Part shown: positions 12,630 to 35,887 of the stretch, one piece after another
Layout: each line of letters opens with the position of its first letter
How positions within the stretch are numbered: position 1 is the stretch's first letter
Source of the DNA: Natrinema halophilum
Lineage (GTDB): Archaea > Halobacteriota > Halobacteria > Halobacteriales > Natrialbaceae
Direction: 5' to 3'
Assembly: GCF_013402815.2 (NCBI RefSeq)
Contig: NZ_CP058601.1
Coordinates: 868,001 to 932,000 of the forward strand
Length of the DNA stretch: 64,000 nucleotides
Notes under the pieces: model-generated
Seen by the model: only the letters and a program-made list of their open reading frames with translations
What the model was told of the DNA's origin: nothing
The model's database searches: none
Program-made: the position numbers and the translations under genes

Positions 12630-13638
12630 GAATACACATATCTATTCGAGGTTGACATATATAATATTAATTGATCTGTATATCTGGTCTTGATTCTTCA
12701 ATACGGCCGAAAGAACCCTCTCGTTCGACTGATTGGCAATACGAGAGAGGAAATGAAAGGAATACTAAACGAAACACGGAGTACCATACGAATTACCAGA
12801 GTGTTTGGCATCTGTGAATCCGACAGACTACGCCCATTGTAGCGGTCGCTATCGGATTCCACACAACTAATCGTTTGCTTCGGAGTAGACTATCAGTATC
12901 TTACTGGGCTGGGATAGAACGATCACGTTAGGCAATTTACTGTGACGAAATAAGTTCATTCTCGTCATGTCAGATAGGGTTTCTATCGTAGGAGCCTGGT
13001 TACCGTGCGCGCCAAGAATAGGCTATCGCGACGGACGATGACGCGGCCGGGGACAGCCATTGTTGTGGGTGCTGTCACGAGTAACACAATCTTATCTTGT
13101 GAGTTCAATGCAATAATACCAGATGGGTTTTCAGTCGCACTGATCGGATATTCCAGTAATAGGGATCGGTTCCAGCGTCTGTAATACTGTATCGCTCCCT
13201 CATAAATAGAACTATCTATCCTTCGATTTCTCTTTTTCCGTTACGAGTATCAAATCGCTGGTGGCCACTTTGGGGAACGAACTACCTCAAGCGCATCGAG
13301 CGAAACCTAGTCAAAAACCAGATTTGATCCTTCGAAAGTGGCGTGGTCTAATCGCAAACCTGGCCGGGTAGCCGTCCGATGCGTGACGCGTTTTTTCTTG
13401 TCCATCTTATGCATTACTAGAACGTCCCGAAATCATACAGATAAAAATACATACATAATATCTCAGGTCTGCCAAATGCGTCGCACCTCTTGTACAACAC
13501 GTGTCGAACGTAGCGTCTCCCAAGTACATTCCGAGAAGAAAATTGAAACCGGGCATCAGTGTTGGGCAACCGAGGACGTTTGGGTCCACATTGGAGTCAA
13601 CCACAACATTTGTACTATCGGACGCTGACACGGTCAGT
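12630..13638. other. AT-richer intergenic region before rdfA
   Basis: About 1 kb without a supportable gene. It holds the GH5 promoter at its left end and AT-rich tracts near 13440-13460 that may serve the rdfA transcript. Short ORFs here (for example 13338-13628) have no protein-like features that I recognise. Confidence 0.5.
12655..12670 (-). promoter_or_regulatory. Putative TATA box of the GH5 gene
   Basis: The reverse strand reads TTAATATTATATATG about 26-41 bases upstream of the GH5 ATG, a good match in sequence and spacing to a core promoter for a short-leader transcript. Confidence 0.5.
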
Positions 13639-14265
13639 ATGACAGGTGACTCGAGCGACCGTCGACAAACAAAGGTCGAGCGAGTAATAGATAAATACGA
13701 GCTCGATGGATGGGGCGATCGGTTAGAAGCTGAATGGGTCGGCGACGGTGCGGAGCGAACGAGTCTGCGCGACCTCGCGACCCAGTTCAATCAGGCTGTA
13801 CTTCGATCAGCAGTGCGCGAGGCGGAGGCATCCGTCCTCGATTCCGACATCGAAGCCCTCTACCAAACGTTAACGGACGATGACGTGTCGCGGTCAGAAG
13901 CCGTTCGGAGGCGGCGCAATCTCGAACGCTCAGGGGTCGACATCGACGACGTTCAATCGGATTTTCTCACCCATCAGACGATCTATACCTATCTCACGAA
14001 CGTTCGCGACGCCTCTCTGCCCGACGAAGACACCGAAGACCGCGTCGAACGAAAGAAAGAGACCATCCAACGGTTAGCCGGTCGAACACAGGTTGTTACA
14101 GAATCCACGCTCGAGGAGTTGGGTAACGCCGGTGAAATCGCTGCTCGAGATTACAACGTATTCATCGATGTGCGCGCTATCTGTGGCAACTGTGGGGCAG
14201 ATTACTCGGTCAGCGAATTACTCGAACAAGGTGGATGTGACTGTGACGTCGTCGCGGTTCAATGA
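13639..14265 (+). CDS. rdfA: Rod-determining factor RdfA homologue
   Basis: This 208-residue acidic protein matches the haloarchaeal RdfA family, which is needed for rod shape in Haloferax volcanii. Visible family features are the N-terminal KVERVIDKYELDGWGD helix, the SLRDLATQFN segment, the LTDDDVS region and a C-terminal zinc-finger-like CGNCGADY followed by GGCDCD. I place the start at the ATG at 13639; the frame stays open to a GTG at 13501, but those 46 residues are not family-like. It lies 65 bases upstream of an archaea-specific SMC-related gene, the typical rdfA partner arrangement. Its biochemical role is not established. Confidence 0.87.
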   Translation: MTGDSSDRRQTKVERVIDKYELDGWGDRLEAEWVGDGAERTSLRDLATQFNQAVLRSAVREAEASVLDSDIEALYQTLTDDDVSRSEAVRRRRNLERSGVDIDDVQSDFLTHQTIYTYLTNVRDASLPDEDTEDRVERKKETIQRLAGRTQVVTESTLEELGNAGEIAARDYNVFIDVRAICGNCGADYSVSELLEQGGCDCDVVAVQ

Positions 14266-14299
14266 CGACCATGGCAGAAAGACGATCGTAACCAAATAA

Positions 14300-14309
14300 C
14301 ATTTATATT
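14300..14309 (+). promoter_or_regulatory. Putative TATA box of the SMC-related gene
   Basis: CATTTATATT lies 22-31 bases before the ATG at 14331, suggesting that the SMC-related gene has its own near-leaderless promoter in addition to any read-through from rdfA. Confidence 0.5.
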
Positions 14310-14330
14310 GAGCGACGAGAAGAGGACCCC

Positions 14331-16283
14331 ATGTCATCCCCAGAGTCAGTCACCTCGTCGATTTCCGTAGAAGCGGAAAATATTGGAGGTATCGATAGTA
14401 CCGAGGTATCACTCCAGCCCGGCGTAAACGTTCTGACTGGCCGGAACGCGACGAATCGAACCTCGTTTCTCCAGACGATCATGGCAGGTCTCGGCAGCCG
14501 ACGGTCGTCGTTGAAAGGAGACGCGGACGCTGGTCACGTCGAGTTAACGTTCGACGACGAACAATACACGCGATATCTCGAGCGGCGCAACGGAGAGGTC
14601 GTCTTCGAGGGCGACCCCTACCTCGATGATCCGGAACTCGCAGATCTCTTCGCCTTCTTACTCGAGTCCAACGAGGCGCGCCGAGCCGTCAGAAGCGGCG
14701 ACAACCTCCGCGAACTCATCATGCGCCCCATCGATACCGATGAGATCGAGGCCGAGATCAGTATGCTCGAGGCCGAAAAGCGCGACCTCGACGACCGCCT
14801 CGAAGAACTTTCTCGTCTCGGAGGCGAACTACCGGACCTCGAGGAACGACGAGTCACACTCGAAGAAGAAATCGACGAAACGGGCGAACAGATATCCGAT
14901 CTTGAAGTCACACTTGACGAGTTCGATCTAGACGTCGATGCAAGTCGTAACCGAAAAGAAGAGATCGAATCAGCGTTTGCTGACCTCCAGGAAGCCCGGA
15001 CGGATCTCGAATCGATCGAGTACGACCTTGAGACCGAACGGGAAAGCTACGCCGAACTCGAACGAGAACGTGACGATCTCGAGGATGAACTCGAGTCGAT
15101 CGACGAAGACGACGAGTCGCCGGATCGTCTCGAGGGTCGTATCCAGGAACTCCGCGCTCGAAAACGATCGCTCGATACGACCGTGAGCGAACTGCAAAGC
15201 GTAATTCGATTCAACGAAGAACGCCTTGCCAATGACGGGTATGATCTCGAACTCGATGCTTCGAGTCCGTCAGACAGCGACGACGGAGCGATAACAGAAC
15301 AGCTTCTTGAAGACTCTGATGATATCGTCTGTTGGACCTGCGGTTCACAAGTGGACCGCGAGCGGATCGACTCGACGCTCGAACAACTGCGCTCACTCCG
15401 ACAGACGAAATTGGAGGATCGGAACGATTTGCAAGAGCAGATAGACGAGATCTCCGCCCGTCAGAAGGAACTGCGGAAACAAACCCAAAAGCGCAGCCGG
15501 ATCGAAGAGCGGCTTTCGACAGTCGAAGACGAACTGGAACGTCGCGCACAACGAATCGAAGAACTCGAGGCAGATATCGAAGAGCAACAAGACTACGTCG
15601 ACGAACTGGAGGAAAACGCCGAAACGTTCGAAGATACCGCATACAGTGACGTTATCGAGACACATCGTGAACTGAATCGCCTCGAACTCGAACTCGAGAA
15701 CCTCAAAGACGAACGCGACGAGGTAGAAGCCCGTATCGACGAAATCGAAACAAAGGTCGATGAACGGAGCGATCTCGAAAGCGAACGGGAGAGCCTCGAC
15801 GACGAGCTTACTGATCTCAGAACGCGCGTCGATCGGATCGAGGAAAACGCTGTCGATGCGTTCAACGAACACATGAGCTCGATCCTTTCGATCCTCGAAT
15901 ATCAGAACATTGATCGTATCTGGATCCAGCGCCGCGAAGAGACTGTCCGAGAAGGCCGCCGAAATGTGACACGGACCGCATTCGACCTTCATATCGTCCG
16001 CTCGACTGAGGACGGAACGACCTACGAAGATACTGTTGATCATCTCTCCGAGAGCGAACGCGAAGTTACGGGACTGGTCTTTGCGCTCGCTGGATATCTG
16101 GTCCACAACGTTTACGAGGACGTCCCGTTCATGCTCCTCGATTCGCTCGAGTCGATAGACTCTACGCGAATCGCCGAAATCGTCGATTACTTCGAAGAGT
16201 ACGTCGATTGTCTCGTCGTCGCCTTGCTCAGAGAAGATGCCGAAGCCCTCTCGGACTCATATAAGTATGTCCGTGAGATCTGA
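14331..16283 (+). CDS. Archaea-specific SMC-related protein (RdfA partner)
   Basis: This 650-residue protein has Rad50/SMC architecture: an N-terminal half-ATPase, a first coiled coil (about 138-300), a hook-like CWTC (Cys334, Cys337), a second coiled coil (about 350-515) and a C-terminal half-ATPase. The nucleotide motifs are atypical. The Walker A position reads GRNATNRTS (37-45), with Arg instead of Lys. The signature region is LSESEREVTG (572-581). The Walker B line reads FMLLDSLESID (600-610), with Ser at the usual catalytic Glu. This is the pattern I expect of the archaea-specific SMC-related family. It probably acts with RdfA in cell-shape or chromosome organisation; the direct function is unknown. 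Confidence 0.85.
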   Translation: MSSPESVTSSISVEAENIGGIDSTEVSLQPGVNVLTGRNATNRTSFLQTIMAGLGSRRSSLKGDADAGHVELTFDDEQYTRYLERRNGEVVFEGDPYLDDPELADLFAFLLESNEARRAVRSGDNLRELIMRPIDTDEIEAEISMLEAEKRDLDDRLEELSRLGGELPDLEERRVTLEEEIDETGEQISDLEVTLDEFDLDVDASRNRKEEIESAFADLQEARTDLESIEYDLETERESYAELERERDDLEDELESIDEDDESPDRLEGRIQELRARKRSLDTTVSELQSVIRFNEERLANDGYDLELDASSPSDSDDGAITEQLLEDSDDIVCWTCGSQVDRERIDSTLEQLRSLRQTKLEDRNDLQEQIDEISARQKELRKQTQKRSRIEERLSTVEDELERRAQRIEELEADIEEQQDYVDELEENAETFEDTAYSDVIETHRELNRLELELENLKDERDEVEARIDEIETKVDERSDLESERESLDDELTDLRTRVDRIEENAVDAFNEHMSSILSILEYQNIDRIWIQRREETVREGRRNVTRTAFDLHIVRSTEDGTTYEDTVDHLSESEREVTGLVFALAGYLVHNVYEDVPFMLLDSLESIDSTRIAEIVDYFEEYVDCLVVALLREDAEALSDSYKYVREI

Positions 16284-30534: not shown

Positions 30535-30577
30535 ACCACGGAATACTACGTTCCCGCATATATTCTTTAATGAGCCC

Positions 30578-31888
30578 TCACGATGGAATTACGACCTTCT
30601 GTTTCACGTGTCCGTTCGAATCTCGAACCGTGAGCTCGTATTTTTCTTCCATCCAACCAGAGCCCCGTTCGGTAAGAGAAAGTTCGGGAATAGACAGTTC
30701 GTCATTCATACTTTCTCCCCTCTCTCCGTATATCTTTATTTTATCGGATTCAGAAACTTCGCTTTTCGGAGGGAATGTATATTCACTCGTCTGTTCTGCT
30801 GGCAAAGGAGCAACTTCGATACTCCATCCCGTTACATTTAATTTATCCCTGTAGTTATTTCCTAGCTCTATATACGGCTGTGCTGAATCTCCTTCTAATC
30901 GAACCGTCAGTGGTTCTCGGTCTATCCAGTACTGGATCACGTGCGAACCGATGTGGAGCAAGAAACTTAAAACGAGACCGACGATGATCGCGGACGCTAA
31001 CCGCCATCCCGGTGGCATCCCTTCTCTAAAAATGAAGTACACACCAACTGATTCGATTATTAAGACGGTGAAGGGGAGAAGGGAAAAATGAGATATCGGA
31101 TCGTGAAAAACAGATTTCCGTGCTCCCTGGCACCAATCAGTCGAGTCGCCATCTACGAGTCGTTCCGTGATCGAATAAGGGGTGAATTGGACGTGAACCG
31201 GGAAATACGAAATGCAGATAATGAGTAAAAAGAGAACCGTTACTATCCCCTCGTCCACCAGATACCCATGTGTGACCTCACTAGGTATCTCGTAGGAACC
31301 GTTTTGCTCGAGTGTCGACAGCAATTCGAGTACCACAATCGCGAACAAAAATAACGAAATAACGAGGGATATTACGGACGCGAACAGGACGTGAACTTTC
31401 CACGTGATCGACGTTGCATTGTATTCGATGTTTCGGATCACCGTATCCAGTACTTCGCGGTGCCACTGGTCCGTACTGGTTACCTTGTTCAATCTAGCGT
31501 TTGTTAAATCGATCTGATCGACACCTCGTCTGTATCGATACGGCGCAATAGCGAGCAGTGTGAAAAGGACCGAACTGCCGAAAAACACGATCCCCGATAT
31601 GAAGTAGGGCGAATCGGTGATGTAGTTGAGAAGAGAGGCACTTATCATCTCTCCGCCGCCTGATCCGAAAAACGACAACAGGGCAGCGAGGCCAGCGAAG
31701 ATACTCGAGCCGCCGACGAGGGATGCAAAAATCGTATTCGCCGTCGAATTGAGATTTTCTATGCGTTGGGCCTGTAATTCTTCGATTTTCTCTCCAGCCT
31801 CTACTGCAGATGAAAGTGGAGTGGAGGGTTCTGATGGAGTATCCTGACTTTTCTGTAGTCTTTTGAGAGTCCGACGGGAGATCCCCAT
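30578..31888 (-). CDS. Orphan multi-pass membrane protein
   Basis: From the ATG at 31888 the protein has 436 residues (MGISRRTLKRLQKSQDTP). An N-terminal amphipathic helix (VEAGEKIEELQAQRIENLNS) leads into about eight membrane helices, then a hydrophilic C-terminal domain of about 110 residues. The frame extends upstream to 32083, but that part is the antisense of a well-supported gene region. GC content is lower than in flanking housekeeping genes, which suggests later acquisition. I recognise no family. The helix-rich N-terminus plus a soluble C-terminal domain might indicate a sensor or effector, but there is no specific motif. Confidence 0.65.
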   Translation of the reverse strand: MGISRRTLKRLQKSQDTPSEPSTPLSSAVEAGEKIEELQAQRIENLNSTANTIFASLVGGSSIFAGLAALLSFFGSGGGEMISASLLNYITDSPYFISGIVFFGSSVLFTLLAIAPYRYRRGVDQIDLTNARLNKVTSTDQWHREVLDTVIRNIEYNATSITWKVHVLFASVISLVISLFLFAIVVLELLSTLEQNGSYEIPSEVTHGYLVDEGIVTVLFLLIICISYFPVHVQFTPYSITERLVDGDSTDWCQGARKSVFHDPISHFSLLPFTVLIIESVGVYFIFREGMPPGWRLASAIIVGLVLSFLLHIGSHVIQYWIDREPLTVRLEGDSAQPYIELGNNYRDKLNVTGWSIEVAPLPAEQTSEYTFPPKSEVSESDKIKIYGERGESMNDELSIPELSLTERGSGWMEEKYELTVRDSNGHVKQKVVIPS

Positions 31889-31961
31889 ACTAAATAGTTT
31901 TTGGCAATCACCATAAGCCTCACTCGAAACACGGTGTATACTGGTCAGTCGTGGGAGGTAG

Positions 31962-32102
31962 TCAAGTGATCCGTTCTCCGTCGGCGTCGAGCGCAACTTC
32001 ACAGTCGTCACAGAGACACCAGTCGAGCAACGGGTCGCGTTCGTCGATCGCCGCGCGACAGTCCGGGCACTGCAGCGGGGCATCGTCTCGAGGTCCGATC
32101 AT
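31962..32102 (-). CDS. Small zinc-ribbon protein
   Basis: The 46-residue protein starts at the ATG at 32102 and has two metal-binding knuckles, CPDC (12-15) and CLCDDC (34-39), separated by an acidic loop. Its ATG overlaps the TGA of the upstream PadR-like gene in an ATGA, so it is translationally coupled to it. Haloarchaea have many such micro zinc-finger proteins; the function is unknown. Confidence 0.65.
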   Translation of the reverse strand: MIGPRDDAPLQCPDCRAAIDERDPLLDWCLCDDCEVALDADGERIT

Positions 32103-32607
32103 ACGACCTCTTCGTTTACCCTTCGACCGCGCTCCCGCTCCGATCTGCCGCCGAGCGCGGTGGTCGACATCCCACAGGCGTCGGCTATGCGTTCGGCGCG
32201 TTGCAACAGAAGGGCGCAACCTTCGCCAGTCAACCGGTACTCGGTCGCGCGTTCGGCCGGGTGCTCGCGTCTCGAGAAGAGACCGCGACCGACGAGGACA
32301 GTCAGAGTCGGATACAGCCAGGTGCGATCGACCACGGGATAGGCCCGCTCGAGGGTGTGTGCGATTCCACGCTCGTCGCACCGTCTGCAGTCGCGCTCGC
32401 GACGGGCGATGGCCTCGAGGCAATCGCGCTGGAAGGCGGTGAGGGCGGTCCAGACGATTTTGCCGTCGGATCAGGGTCGGTTACGGGGTGGTACGTCTGC
32501 TCGAGCGGGGCGTTCAAGGCCCCGCGAACGTCGTCAATCATGGCTTCCAGGGTCGATTTGGGAGCTATCTGCGGTCTCGGTGTCTCCAGCACCGGGCCGT
32601 TTTCCAC
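32099..32607 (-). pseudogene. PadR-like winged-helix regulator, frameshifted
   Basis: The GTG-started frame at 32607 (MENGPVLETPRPQIAPKSTL) reads into VTDPDPTAK. At the TTTT run at 32458-32461 (AAAA on the coding strand) the PadR-like continuation lies one frame over: IVWTALTAFQRDCLEAIARR, then TLERAYPVVDRTWLYPTLTV, RGLFSRREHPAERATEYRLT. Adding one A restores a single 169-residue protein. The downstream frame has no in-frame start before the GTG at 32335. This is a genuine one-base lesion, a sequencing error in a homopolymer, or (less likely) programmed slippage. Confidence 0.7.
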
Positions 32608-32757
32608 GTTACTCTGACAATCGGGTTTGTTGAGAGCTCCTGGAGAAACTATAGTTTCTCAAAGTTTGTATAATTATCGATAGCGTCTGAACAATCTATC
32701 TAATATTTGTAGCTGCTTTCCGACGACGATTAGATACCGTGAGGGTATTCGAGTAAT

Positions 32758-33018
32758 ATGCGGATTTCTGCTGACTGGATGGTTCTCGCTGACGACAGGA
32801 TTCTCGAGTTTTTGGAAGAGAACGGACCACGATCGCCATCAAAGATCAAAAGTGAGGGTCCGATCCCGTTCTCCCGCCAACATATAAATAATCGCTGTAT
32901 GAAGTTGGAAAAGTATGGTCTGACCCAAAATATCGGAAATGGAGTATATACGATTACTGATACTGGCGAAAAGTATCTTCAAGGCGATTTAGACGGGAGA
33001 AAATTGGATAGAGGTTGA
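32758..33018 (+). CDS. PhiH1-repressor-like winged-helix protein
   Basis: This 86-residue DNA-binding protein contains ADDRILEFLEENGPRSPSKI, a recognition helix around FSRQHINNRCMKLEKYGL and a wing ending in YTITDTGEKYL. This layout matches the small haloarchaeal repressor-like winged helices related to the phiH1 virus repressor. Surrounding DNA is AT-rich. It stands alone and could regulate a neighbouring accessory gene or itself. Confidence 0.72.
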   Translation: MRISADWMVLADDRILEFLEENGPRSPSKIKSEGPIPFSRQHINNRCMKLEKYGLTQNIGNGVYTITDTGEKYLQGDLDGRKLDRG

Positions 33019-33546
33019 ATATGATAGTTGTGCCCGACCGTTAGTTCTCCATCGGTTGGACGATTCGCAAGCGGATCACCATCGAACATACCGCGGTGCA
33101 TGGATGACGATAGTGGTATTTCGGTGGAATGAACCAGTCGTGACGTCAGAGACGATATTACTCTGCTCAAGGTGGGAAACGTCCCCCTTTTCCCGGATTC
33201 GAGATCAAATAACTATTTTAACTTCATTATCAGAGATATCTGTAATCGACAAACTCGTTCTAATGGTGTCGGTTGAAAATGACCGACGATCATTTCGATC
33301 GTCGGAATGGAATGCTTTCGATAGACGTTCGACCGCACCACATTTTACTATTTAATAATTTAATCTATAAAATTATACCATTGAAAAAATAAAATTCTAT
33401 ATACACTGACGTATATGTGGCAACTGGCGAGAGTGTGAGAAACGGTATCAATCGAATCCACACGTATCGTGTTACGCTCAACCCGTGAACGTGCGACTCG
33501 AACGGGTTGGTGGCAGTCGAAACCATTCCCCTAACGAATAACACCG
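33019..33546. other. AT-rich spacer
   Basis: These 528 bases are markedly AT-rich, especially at 33340-33420, and contain no supportable gene. Together with the lower GC of flanking genes this marks a probable island or integration region. Confidence 0.5.
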
Positions 33547-34110
33547 ATGGATCAAGACATCACGCGGCGAAAGGCCATTCAAACCCTCTCGGTGGGTGGG
33601 ATTACGGTCGCACTCAGTGGTTGTCAGGGCATGTTAAGCGAGATGATAGATATGAACACAAATACACAAGACCGTCACGGACCGATGCGTACTGGACGAT
33701 TCACGGTTCAAATAAACGACACCGAAATTGCAGGGTTTCAACACGTAAAGATTCCAGGTAGTTCGACCGAACGTGATGAATATCGTGACGGCTCTGACCC
33801 CGACTACGAAAAGAAACTCTGGGGAAAAACGACCTACGACGAACTGGAACTGGTACGAGGATTCGTTCCCGGTGATCCTGTACTTCGGGAGTGGAAAGAT
33901 GACGTCATCGCGGGTAAGGTAGACTCAGGCCGAAAAAAAGTCACGGTCAGCCTGATGAACGAAGACGGTGAAGCAGTGATCGAATGGCAGTTTTCCAACT
34001 CGTGGATTACGGAGTATGAGCCGCCAGAACTGGATGCAAATGCTGAAGAAAACGTTGGTACGGAAGCAGTCACAGTCGCGTTCGACAAAATGGTACGCAC
34101 TGAGGTGTAA
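33547..34110 (+). CDS. Tat-signal lipoprotein with a phage tail-tube (gp19-like) fold
   Basis: The 187-residue protein begins with a Tat-type signal (DITRRKAIQTLSVGG) and a lipobox ending at Cys26 (VALSGC). From about residue 46 to the end it matches the conserved phage tail region/gp19 family: TGRFTVQINDTEIAGFQHV, YRDGSDPDYEKKLWGKT, ELELVRGFVPGD, WKDDVIAGKVD and VIEWQFSNSWITEYEPPEL. That family forms tube subunits of contractile tails and injection systems, normally assembled in the cytoplasm. A membrane-anchored extracellular version without sheath, baseplate or spike genes nearby is unusual. Its role is unknown. Confidence 0.8.
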   Translation: MDQDITRRKAIQTLSVGGITVALSGCQGMLSEMIDMNTNTQDRHGPMRTGRFTVQINDTEIAGFQHVKIPGSSTERDEYRDGSDPDYEKKLWGKTTYDELELVRGFVPGDPVLREWKDDVIAGKVDSGRKKVTVSLMNEDGEAVIEWQFSNSWITEYEPPELDANAEENVGTEAVTVAFDKMVRTEV

Positions 34111-34371
34111 GGAGACTCAGCGATGTACTTATCCGCAGGGGTTCCGCTATTTGAGAGCGTCGTTTCGACTTCGGAGGTCGGAACACAATCGCTATCTGAA
34201 ACTAGTAAGTGACTGAATCGCACCTCCAAAATTATATCATACTGGTTATAATAGTCCATTCGCTTTTGTGTATATGCGTTGTTTGATTGTGGTTACCTCA
34301 GCAATTCCGGGTTTTTCGGCATAGTGAATCAGAAAGACAGCAGGAATTACGACAGCAACCCCATCTCTGAC

Positions 34372-35007
34372 TTAGAGAGGCTGTGCCACAATTCCGAGGT
34401 GATCCGTATGGTACTCCTCGAGCCCCCTCGTCTCAACAAACTCATAGCCCTCCGAAAGCTCCTCCCGAACGTCATCGTACACAGCTGACGGCTCCCGAGT
34501 CACGTCCTCGCTCCGCGCCTTCACGGCCAACAGGAGCCGCCCGTCGTCGGCCAGAAAGCGCCGGTTCTCGAGCGCCACACGCGCCTGCCCCCGCGTCGCA
34601 ACGTCCTGGACGATCACGTCCACGTCCGATTCGACGACGTGGGCGTAGGTCTCCGGCTTCCGCGCGTCCTTGAGCAACGGAAAGAGCCGATCGCGAGATT
34701 TCGCGGCCTCGAGCAGATCGCGCGCCGGTCGCGCGGCGAACTCGACGGCGTAGGTGGGTCCCGCGAAATCGGCGACGTGACTCACGGTCGTCCCGCTCGC
34801 GGCACCCAGGTAGAGGACGGTCTCGCCTCCCTCGAGACCAGTGTCCATCCCCAGCTCGAGCATCGCACCGAGTTTCGACCGGTTCGGATTCCAGGCGCGC
34901 CACTCGCCGTCCGTCGGTTCGCCGTACACCGGCTCGCCGTGGGTCGCGAGTCGCTCATCTCCGTCGAACGAGCGGCGCTCGACCCCCGCCGGACGGTTGT
35001 CACTCAT
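34372..35007 (-). CDS. flpA: Fibrillarin-like rRNA/tRNA 2'-O-methyltransferase
   Basis: This 211-residue protein is the catalytic subunit of archaeal box C/D RNPs, methylating ribose 2'-OH on rRNA and tRNA using S-adenosylmethionine. Visible are the fibrillarin opening AWNPNRSKLGAMLE, the SAM-binding VLYLGAASGTTVSHVAD, YAVEFAARPARDL and VDVIVQDVATRGQA. The ATG at 35007 overlaps the nop5 stop by 8 bases; an upstream frame to 35034 is less likely. The nop5-flpA operon order is conserved in archaea. Confidence 0.95.
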   Translation of the reverse strand: MSDNRPAGVERRSFDGDERLATHGEPVYGEPTDGEWRAWNPNRSKLGAMLELGMDTGLEGGETVLYLGAASGTTVSHVADFAGPTYAVEFAARPARDLLEAAKSRDRLFPLLKDARKPETYAHVVESDVDVIVQDVATRGQARVALENRRFLADDGRLLLAVKARSEDVTREPSAVYDDVREELSEGYEFVETRGLEEYHTDHLGIVAQPL

Positions 35008-35887
35008 GGTCGACACCCCCGTCAGGTGCGGCATCGTCGTCTGACTCCTTCTCCGCAGTCCGGGCTTGAATCGTCTCGATCCGCTCAGCTAGTTCCGCTT
35101 CGAGTTCGGGCTTCGATTCGCCCGAGTAGTAATCGACGCGGGCCGCGATAGCGAGCTTGCCAGCGACTGCGCGGGCGGCTGACCCCCGGTCGTCGGGGTG
35201 CGTGCCGCGGACCGCGTCGTGCGTGTAGATAATTCCGTGTTTGGGTGACGGTGCGTGCCCCCGAAGGTGGGCGAATAGAGCGTCCTCCGCACCCAGGACC
35301 TGAATCGTTCCGCTCGGTTTCTTCGCCAGTTCCTCGAGGCCACCGGCGAGGGATATCAGTCGCGCTGCGAGGACCGGATCGCCGAGTGCACAGAGGTTTG
35401 GCGCAATGGCCGGCGTCCGCCGCTCGACGAATGCGCGCAGATCGTCGGCCTCGTCGGCCAAGTCGGCGATCCGTTCGGCGAGCGAACGAATCGCGGGCTC
35501 TGTCAGCGCGTCGCCGGATTCACCGCTTGCCACCGCTCTGGCGTACTCGACGCCGGTTCCCGCCTCGGGGTCTACAGTCCCGGCCCACTCGGCTAGCCGC
35601 TCTGCCAGTTCGTTGGCAGTTCGGTTACAGTCGTCCATCGCTCGGACCGCGTGGACGAGTTGACGGTCGTCGGCCTGCTCGCGTTCGGCCACCGCGGTCC
35701 GCGTCGCTGCGGTCGTCGCTTCGCGCAGAGCGTCGTAGTAGTCGTCCTCGTCGCTGGCGAATCCCGCCTCGAGCGCGAGAGCGGGCCAGTTCCGCGGTTC
35801 GTCGGAATTCCCCTCGCGAATCCCGGCTGCCATCGCGTCGGAATCGTCGCGTTCCGCGTCCGCGAACCACCCGTCCGTGTCGGTCAT
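35000..35887 (-). CDS. nop5: Nop5/Nop56-58 family C/D RNP core protein
   Basis: This 295-residue scaffold protein bridges fibrillarin and the L7Ae-bound box C/D guide RNA. The Nop domain is clear: IAPNLCALGDPVLAARLISLAGG, then LAKKPSGTIQVLGAEDALF, HGIIYTHDAV and a basic/acidic C-terminal tail. The N-terminal fibrillarin-binding domain and a central coiled coil (about 95-160) precede it. It is translated immediately before flpA. Confidence 0.94.
   Translation of the reverse strand: MTDTDGWFADAERDDSDAMAAGIREGNSDEPRNWPALALEAGFASDEDDYYDALREATTAATRTAVAEREQADDRQLVHAVRAMDDCNRTANELAERLAEWAGTVDPEAGTGVEYARAVASGESGDALTEPAIRSLAERIADLADEADDLRAFVERRTPAIAPNLCALGDPVLAARLISLAGGLEELAKKPSGTIQVLGAEDALFAHLRGHAPSPKHGIIYTHDAVRGTHPDDRGSAARAVAGKLAIAARVDYYSGESKPELEAELAERIETIQARTAEKESDDDAAPDGGVDHE

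Follow-up and report, generated by a model that had tools for sequence, protein, structure and literature searches.

A predicted surface lipoprotein with a tail-tube domain in Natrinema halophilum, a genome in which neither sheath nor gp25 genes were found

In a stretch of 64,000 nucleotides from Natrinema halophilum (contig NZ_CP058601.1, positions 868,001 to 932,000 of the forward strand; the window in what follows), one gene encodes a tail-tube protein, P0001, with a predicted lipoprotein signal, and we favour, at somewhat better than even confidence, the view that P0001 is an inner-tube subunit of a contractile injection system (CIS) domesticated as a cell-surface lipoprotein and not a driven tube. 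P0001 would be synthesised and folded in the cytoplasm and then exported by the Tat pathway, cleavage before Cys26 would leave it tethered by lipid to the cytoplasmic membrane (outer leaflet), beneath the S-layer, and a linker of roughly 20 residues would keep the tube-fold domain outside. There it would function in the absence of sheath and baseplate; most likely it would be a single domain or a small ring, with a surface partner that it binds or displays. Tat export and lipid anchoring at Cys26 are predictions that the sequence strongly indicates and that we regard as highly probable. The particular role, as a scaffold or in partner display, is suggested by the relatives of P0001 and is offered as a tentative and rather doubtful assignment.

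The gp19 gene is intact, comprises 187 codons (187 aa) and occupies positions 33547..34110 on the plus strand of the window. Since just four codons lie between its ATG and the in-frame stop upstream, no further upstream start is available. The N-terminus of the protein, MDQDITRRKAIQTLSVGGITVALSGC, shows twin arginines at residues 7-8 (TRRKAI) and the lipobox LSGC with Cys26, and a Tat signal peptide is therefore predicted for residues 1-26 (33547..33624, plus strand). All eight residues preceding Cys26 are uncharged and the spacing between R8 and Cys26 amounts to 17 residues, which lies within the published haloarchaeal range of 12-21 residues from twin arginine to lipobox, and LSGC is among the lipoboxes that have been studied in Haloferax (PMC2945643). 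P0001 conforms to the resulting motif rule for haloarchaeal Tat lipoproteins (twin arginine, uncharged h-region, lipobox, spacing of 12-21), as did none of 200,000 shuffles of its first 45 residues. The short TAT model of NCBI gave 13.9 bits, slightly below its cut-off of 16.7, so that the motif rule and conservation carry the case for the signal.

A homologue from another haloarchaeal family (genome G148, locus L066:8153-8713) carries the Tat-lipobox signal MEPEVTRRDALQTLTVAGSTVALSGC. From the threonine preceding the arginines through the cysteine, the two signals are identical at 16 of 21 positions, compared with 7 of 21 for unrelated signals with the spacing of P0001 (the other two in 1.4 Mb of loci). 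Identity amounts to 17/26 over the signal and to about 45% over the aligned domain, and dN/dS in the signal is 0.15 at a dS of 1.7, where synonymous sites are near saturation. The copies from Halorubrum salipaludis and H. saccharovorum (L064, L065) possess a Tat signal without a lipobox, and when these two were compared with each other, dN/dS values of 0.15 in the signal, 0.30 in the domain and 0.35 overall were obtained. Across the loci examined, which contain 155 distinct gp19 domains, 4 of these domains have a Tat-type signal in frame, all four in one clade. Because the same Tat-lipobox occurs in G148, a member of another family, the predicted signal of P0001 is inherited together with its domain and is not a product of chance. 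A Tat signal with a lipobox at Cys26 had been proposed when the DNA was read on its own (the sequence-only reading), and both the motif with its spacing of 17 and the conservation in G148 bear this out. An alternative start that would remove the signal, which that reading had named as one way in which it could fail, did not materialise, the signal being conserved as protein.

The signal is followed by a linker, residues 27-45 (33625..33681, plus strand), which is predicted to be unstructured (pLDDT about 43-63) and is identical to that of G148 at 8 of 19 positions. Residues 46-187 (33682..34107, plus strand) form the tail-tube domain, with a Pfam match at residues 50-182 and an alignment to tube structures over residues 36-187. 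P0001 scores 104.7 bits against PF06841 (cut-off 28.2; 4.4e-30) and 97.7 bits against TIGR02241 (cut-off 62.4; 4.9e-28), and 113.5 bits (9e-33) against the CIS1 inner-tube equivalog model NF053769, which is below the equivalog cut-off of 220. By sequence, its relatives of solved structure are the tubes found in extracellular contractile injection systems, and the conserved residues of the family are mostly retained. The AlphaFold model has a mean pLDDT of 80, with most of the domain above 90, and is closest to the tubes PlPVC1, Pvc1 and Afp1 (Z about 15, ~145 residues aligned), followed by T4 gp19 and Hcp, and Foldseek returned TM values of up to 0.85 of the target. The modelled domain is thus a gp19/CIS1 tail-tube fold, in agreement with the gp19-like assignment made from the letters of the DNA, and the structure prediction that had been recommended to check that assignment yielded a model resembling tail-tube proteins.

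P0001 is the only gp19 protein encoded in the N. halophilum genome. Genome-wide searches of this genome (G000) for the sheath (PF04984) and for gp25 of the baseplate (PF04965) found neither, and both families were found in the congeners G051 and G060, which served as positive controls. Likewise, neither family was found in the other genomes with exported copies (G148, G272, G198) or in the Natronosalvus genomes G110 and G113. Absence of a sheath in the genomes named here is taken from genome-wide searches, a locus-level flag (one seed, short loci) being no proof of absence. Matches to gp19 were obtained in 81 of 391 haloarchaeal genomes, and 14 relatives within the genus have at least two, as expected for a full CIS; the tubes of these congeners are placed elsewhere in the tube tree than P0001. 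The earlier observation that no contractile tail genes lie nearby hence holds genome-wide for both families searched, and the suggestion that P0001 might anchor an injection tube is not supported, as neither sheath nor gp25 was found. The surface ring and the receptor that had been suggested alongside it are possible uses.

Two other origins were considered and set aside. A degenerate copy of the CIS of the congeners does not fit a protein that groups with a sheath-less clade and QH_2_65_14, in a genome without detected sheath or gp25. A prophage remnant seems unlikely for lack of a relative among the phage records and viral contigs searched: tblastn against 50,697 phage records and scans of IMG/VR gave no match. 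More distant PHROG tail-tube families do match the protein. A contig scan with the single P0001 protein gave nothing, and one with the alignment gave six loci.

In the tree of tube domains, P0001 falls into a clade of mostly sheath-less gp19s (UFboot 90 / SH-aLRT 80), within which the exact placement of P0001 and L066 is unsure, since both sit on long branches. Except for QH_2_65_14 (L102) and genome G482, no sheath was found for members of this clade, which contains all four exported gp19s. QH_2_65_14 is the single CIS-linked member, with a complete CIS locus in which the sheath gene, the tube gene and other CIS genes line up in order, and provides the CIS tube nearest to P0001, about 60% identical over the domain. 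The simplest history would be that a CIS tube gene escaped from its locus and took up another use. The gp19 of G148 is flanked by two DDE transposases. In Natronosalvus amylolyticus and N. hydrolyticus (L062:8278-9953, L063:6966-8641), a gp19 without a signal is followed by a tail-fibre gene with an S74 chaperone and then by a small Tat-signal protein, and these three-gene sets sit among large surface-type proteins in genomes in which no sheath or gp25 was found. By eye, the small Tat-signal protein ends in a dockerin-like tail. In a Halovenus sp. and in archaeon J07HX64 (L107:6918-8429, L171:1320-2510), the gp19 domain forms the C-terminal end of proteins in which CARDB-like, adhesion-type domains precede it in one frame, and an S74-fibre gene adjoins; no sheath was found in the Halovenus genome, which is 77% complete, and that of J07HX64 (G482) lies far from its gp19. 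Genome G493 encodes a gp19 and a gp19-DUF6517 fusion, and no sheath was found there. In the neighbouring sister group G462-G464, a gene for a 93-aa Tat lipoprotein abuts gp19 directly upstream (pairs at L168:8159-8888, L169:7265-7994 and L170:7734-8463) and a gp19-DUF6517 fusion of ~560 aa comes after it, with no sheath gene in the three genomes. As the gp19s of Natronosalvus and of G462-G464 lack a signal of their own, the lineage need not be extracellular as a whole. P0001 itself has none of these partners (fibre, CARDB, DUF6517) next to it, and a search of the N. halophilum genome for the Natronosalvus fibre gene returned no homologue.

Several members of this lineage have also changed the segment by which rings stack. 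In Hcp1, the loop D40-R56 touches the next ring and its mutation blocks stacking (PMC4650826), and the matching loop of R-type tubes and T4 gp19 is a hairpin that reaches the lower disk and has a near-constant length of 25-28 residues (PMC6088184). Mapped onto solved tubes by sequence alignment, not by superposition, the loop corresponds to residues 70-93 of P0001 (33754..33825, plus strand) and is of full length (23 residue steps). Among 101 distinct gp19 sequences, the loop spans 23-26 residue steps in 95 and 8-21 in six, namely those of G148, G493 (two), Halovenus, J07HX64 and one G463 copy. All six belong to the largely sheath-less lineage, in which the shortening occurred in at least three separate lines, compared with 0 of the 95 other distinct sequences. 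The G148 copy has 15 residues fewer in the loop and its model retains the barrel with high confidence. Because P0001 and the Halorubrum copies keep a full-length loop, loss of stacking appears to be a tendency of the lineage and is not extended to P0001, which may form a tube or stack. That the fold has been put to a new use, as had been surmised from P0001 by itself, gains support from a mostly sheath-less clade in which several members lack the stacking loop or carry surface-type domains. The search for homologues with the same signal and for their gene neighbourhoods, also proposed at that stage, led to the Tat-lipobox of G148 and to clade members most of which are without a sheath.

The gp19 gene sits in a lineage-specific insert (33019..34371, unstranded) between a small HTH gene (32758-33018) and the fibrillarin gene (34372-35034). 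Among 29 congeners it occurs between the HTH and fibrillarin-nop5 genes in N. halophilum alone; the gap is ~24 bp in congener G073, and G070 and G054 have other DNA there. The GC content of the bin at 33-34 kb is 46%, compared with ~59% around it, and the third-position GC of the gp19 gene is 0.51, compared with 0.75-0.81 for two housekeeping genes examined next to it. This distribution, the variable content of the gap and the low GC values indicate that the gene is accessory and was probably acquired horizontally. What had been described as an AT-rich island does have the lower GC, but the effect is mild. Repeats around the gene are limited to short, weak families and element ends were not found, and DNA folding upstream of the gene was unremarkable (z -1.8). 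A defence gene by family was also considered and dropped, given that PADLOC returned no defence-family match at or near gp19.

The wider surroundings deserve brief mention. The interval from an AMP-ligase gene to the fibrillarin gene (window 30535-34371) resembles a gene-exchange spot, ranging from <100 bp to several kb across congeners, with a cargo that varies between them and a transposase-like fragment in G054. A multi-pass membrane protein with a weak C-terminal match to a lamin-tail domain is encoded at 30578-32083, in the same low-GC stretch as gp19. At 13501-16283, 17 kb from gp19, lies a gene pair that by eye resembles a haloarchaeal SMC-related protein and rod-determining factor, and a similar pair, again by eye, is found at L168:1-2370, 6 kb from the gp19 of G462. 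Such pairs are common in haloarchaea and their nearness to gp19 may be chance.

Other explanations of P0001 have to be weighed. As a decoy or immunity protein, a surface-anchored tube subunit would cap or misdirect a part of the contact-dependent CIS of a neighbour, be it tube, adaptor or spike, and protect a cell that has no CIS. Haloarchaeal CISs do kill CIS-less neighbours on contact (PMC11566945), all four exported copies reside in genomes without detected sheath or gp25, and an accessory gene with a patchy distribution in a variable spot would suit such a function. Yet most haloarchaeal genomes are without gp19 anyway, which makes the absence of an own CIS uninformative, and no defence family was matched nearby. 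To our knowledge, no tube-mimic immunity protein has been described and known immunity proteins pair with toxins, and we consider a decoy rather unlikely. The occurrence in a single congener is likewise compatible with a gene of minor or transient use. As a passing relic, P0001 would be a tube gene joined by chance to a Tat signal and spread by mobile elements without doing anything important, and the gene-exchange spot, the transposases on both sides of the G148 copy and the long branches of the clade agree with this. However, the ORF of P0001 is intact, the Halorubrum copies have evolved under purifying selection, P0001 and G148 yield a similarly low dN/dS, though near saturation of dS, and the signal is conserved across families; a passing relic is therefore an unlikely account.

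Lipoprotein hexamer rings might instead be stacked outside the membrane as a short passive tube or pore. The complete barrel and full-length loop of P0001 and the Halorubrum copies, the retained family residues and the ability of proteins of the tube fold to make rings without a baseplate (PMC6088184) speak for such a channel, but the loop is short in six relatives, among them the sole other lipobox copy (G148), a lipid anchor on each subunit would restrict stacking past one ring, and no gp25 gene was found; we think a channel of this kind quite improbable. Finally, translation from one of the codons M29-M47 would produce a cytoplasmic tube subunit. Several ATGs do lie downstream, most relatives begin just ahead of the domain, and by eye no clear TATA or ribosome site is seen immediately 5' of the ATG. 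A mis-called start is nevertheless very hard to reconcile with a signal conserved at the protein level in another family despite near-saturated synonymous change, and with a genome that offers a cytoplasmic tube no detected sheath or gp25 to work with.

Returning to the domesticated surface lipoprotein, a scaffold or adhesin-like use is favoured because in the relatives the tube gene is accompanied by fibre, CARDB and Tat-lipoprotein genes. In a broader reading, which we find plausible at somewhat less than even probability as a whole, a separate haloarchaeal lineage of sheath-less tube proteins left the injection machine to serve as modules of the cell surface (lipoproteins, secreted proteins, fusions with CARDB or DUF6517, S74-type fibre partners), several of them without the stacking loop, and P0001 would represent one branch, the lipid-anchored one, of a surface system that is made from tube parts and does not contract.

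Tail-tube proteins are familiar as needles put together within the cell. If the present interpretation is true, a lineage that departed from the machine, acquired a Tat-lipobox export signal and in some members lost the loop required for ring stacking would clearly exemplify how a component of phage tails can become a cell-surface protein in archaea, and an annotation as 'phage tail protein' or gp19 need not mean an injection system or a prophage. In the limited open-access literature searched, we found no Tat lipoprotein whose passenger is a phage-tail or tube domain, and searches for an earlier orphan or domesticated tube protein brought up nothing of relevance. Each of the three elements (tube domain, type of signal, solitary tube gene) is known by itself; no paper in that literature was found to combine them. 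CIS1-type tubes (Pvc1, Afp1, PlPVC1 and those of Algoriphagus and Anabaena) share domain and fold with P0001 over residues 36-187 (Z 13.5-15, 25-29% identity) but are encoded together with sheath and baseplate, whereas P0001 has a Tat-lipobox and a genome without detected sheath or gp25. We know of no signal peptide in CIS1-type tubes of extracellular CISs. An orphan Hcp generally leaves the cell through a T6SS whose genes lie elsewhere in its genome, and it is not known to carry a signal peptide. In the orphan hcp islands of bacterial T6SS (PMC13098142), the tube gene lies apart from the machine, as with P0001, which differs in having its own export signal and in a genome where no sheath or gp25 was found. 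With haloarchaeal Tat lipoproteins (PMC2945643), P0001 shares the twin-arginine signal, the lipobox, their spacing and the composition. The haloarchaeal CIS/T6SS of Halogeometricum borinquense (PMC11566945) has a tube of the family to which P0001 belongs, within the same archaeal class; in contrast to such membrane-bound contractile machines, which are built inside the cell, P0001 is a lone subunit that is predicted to be exported.
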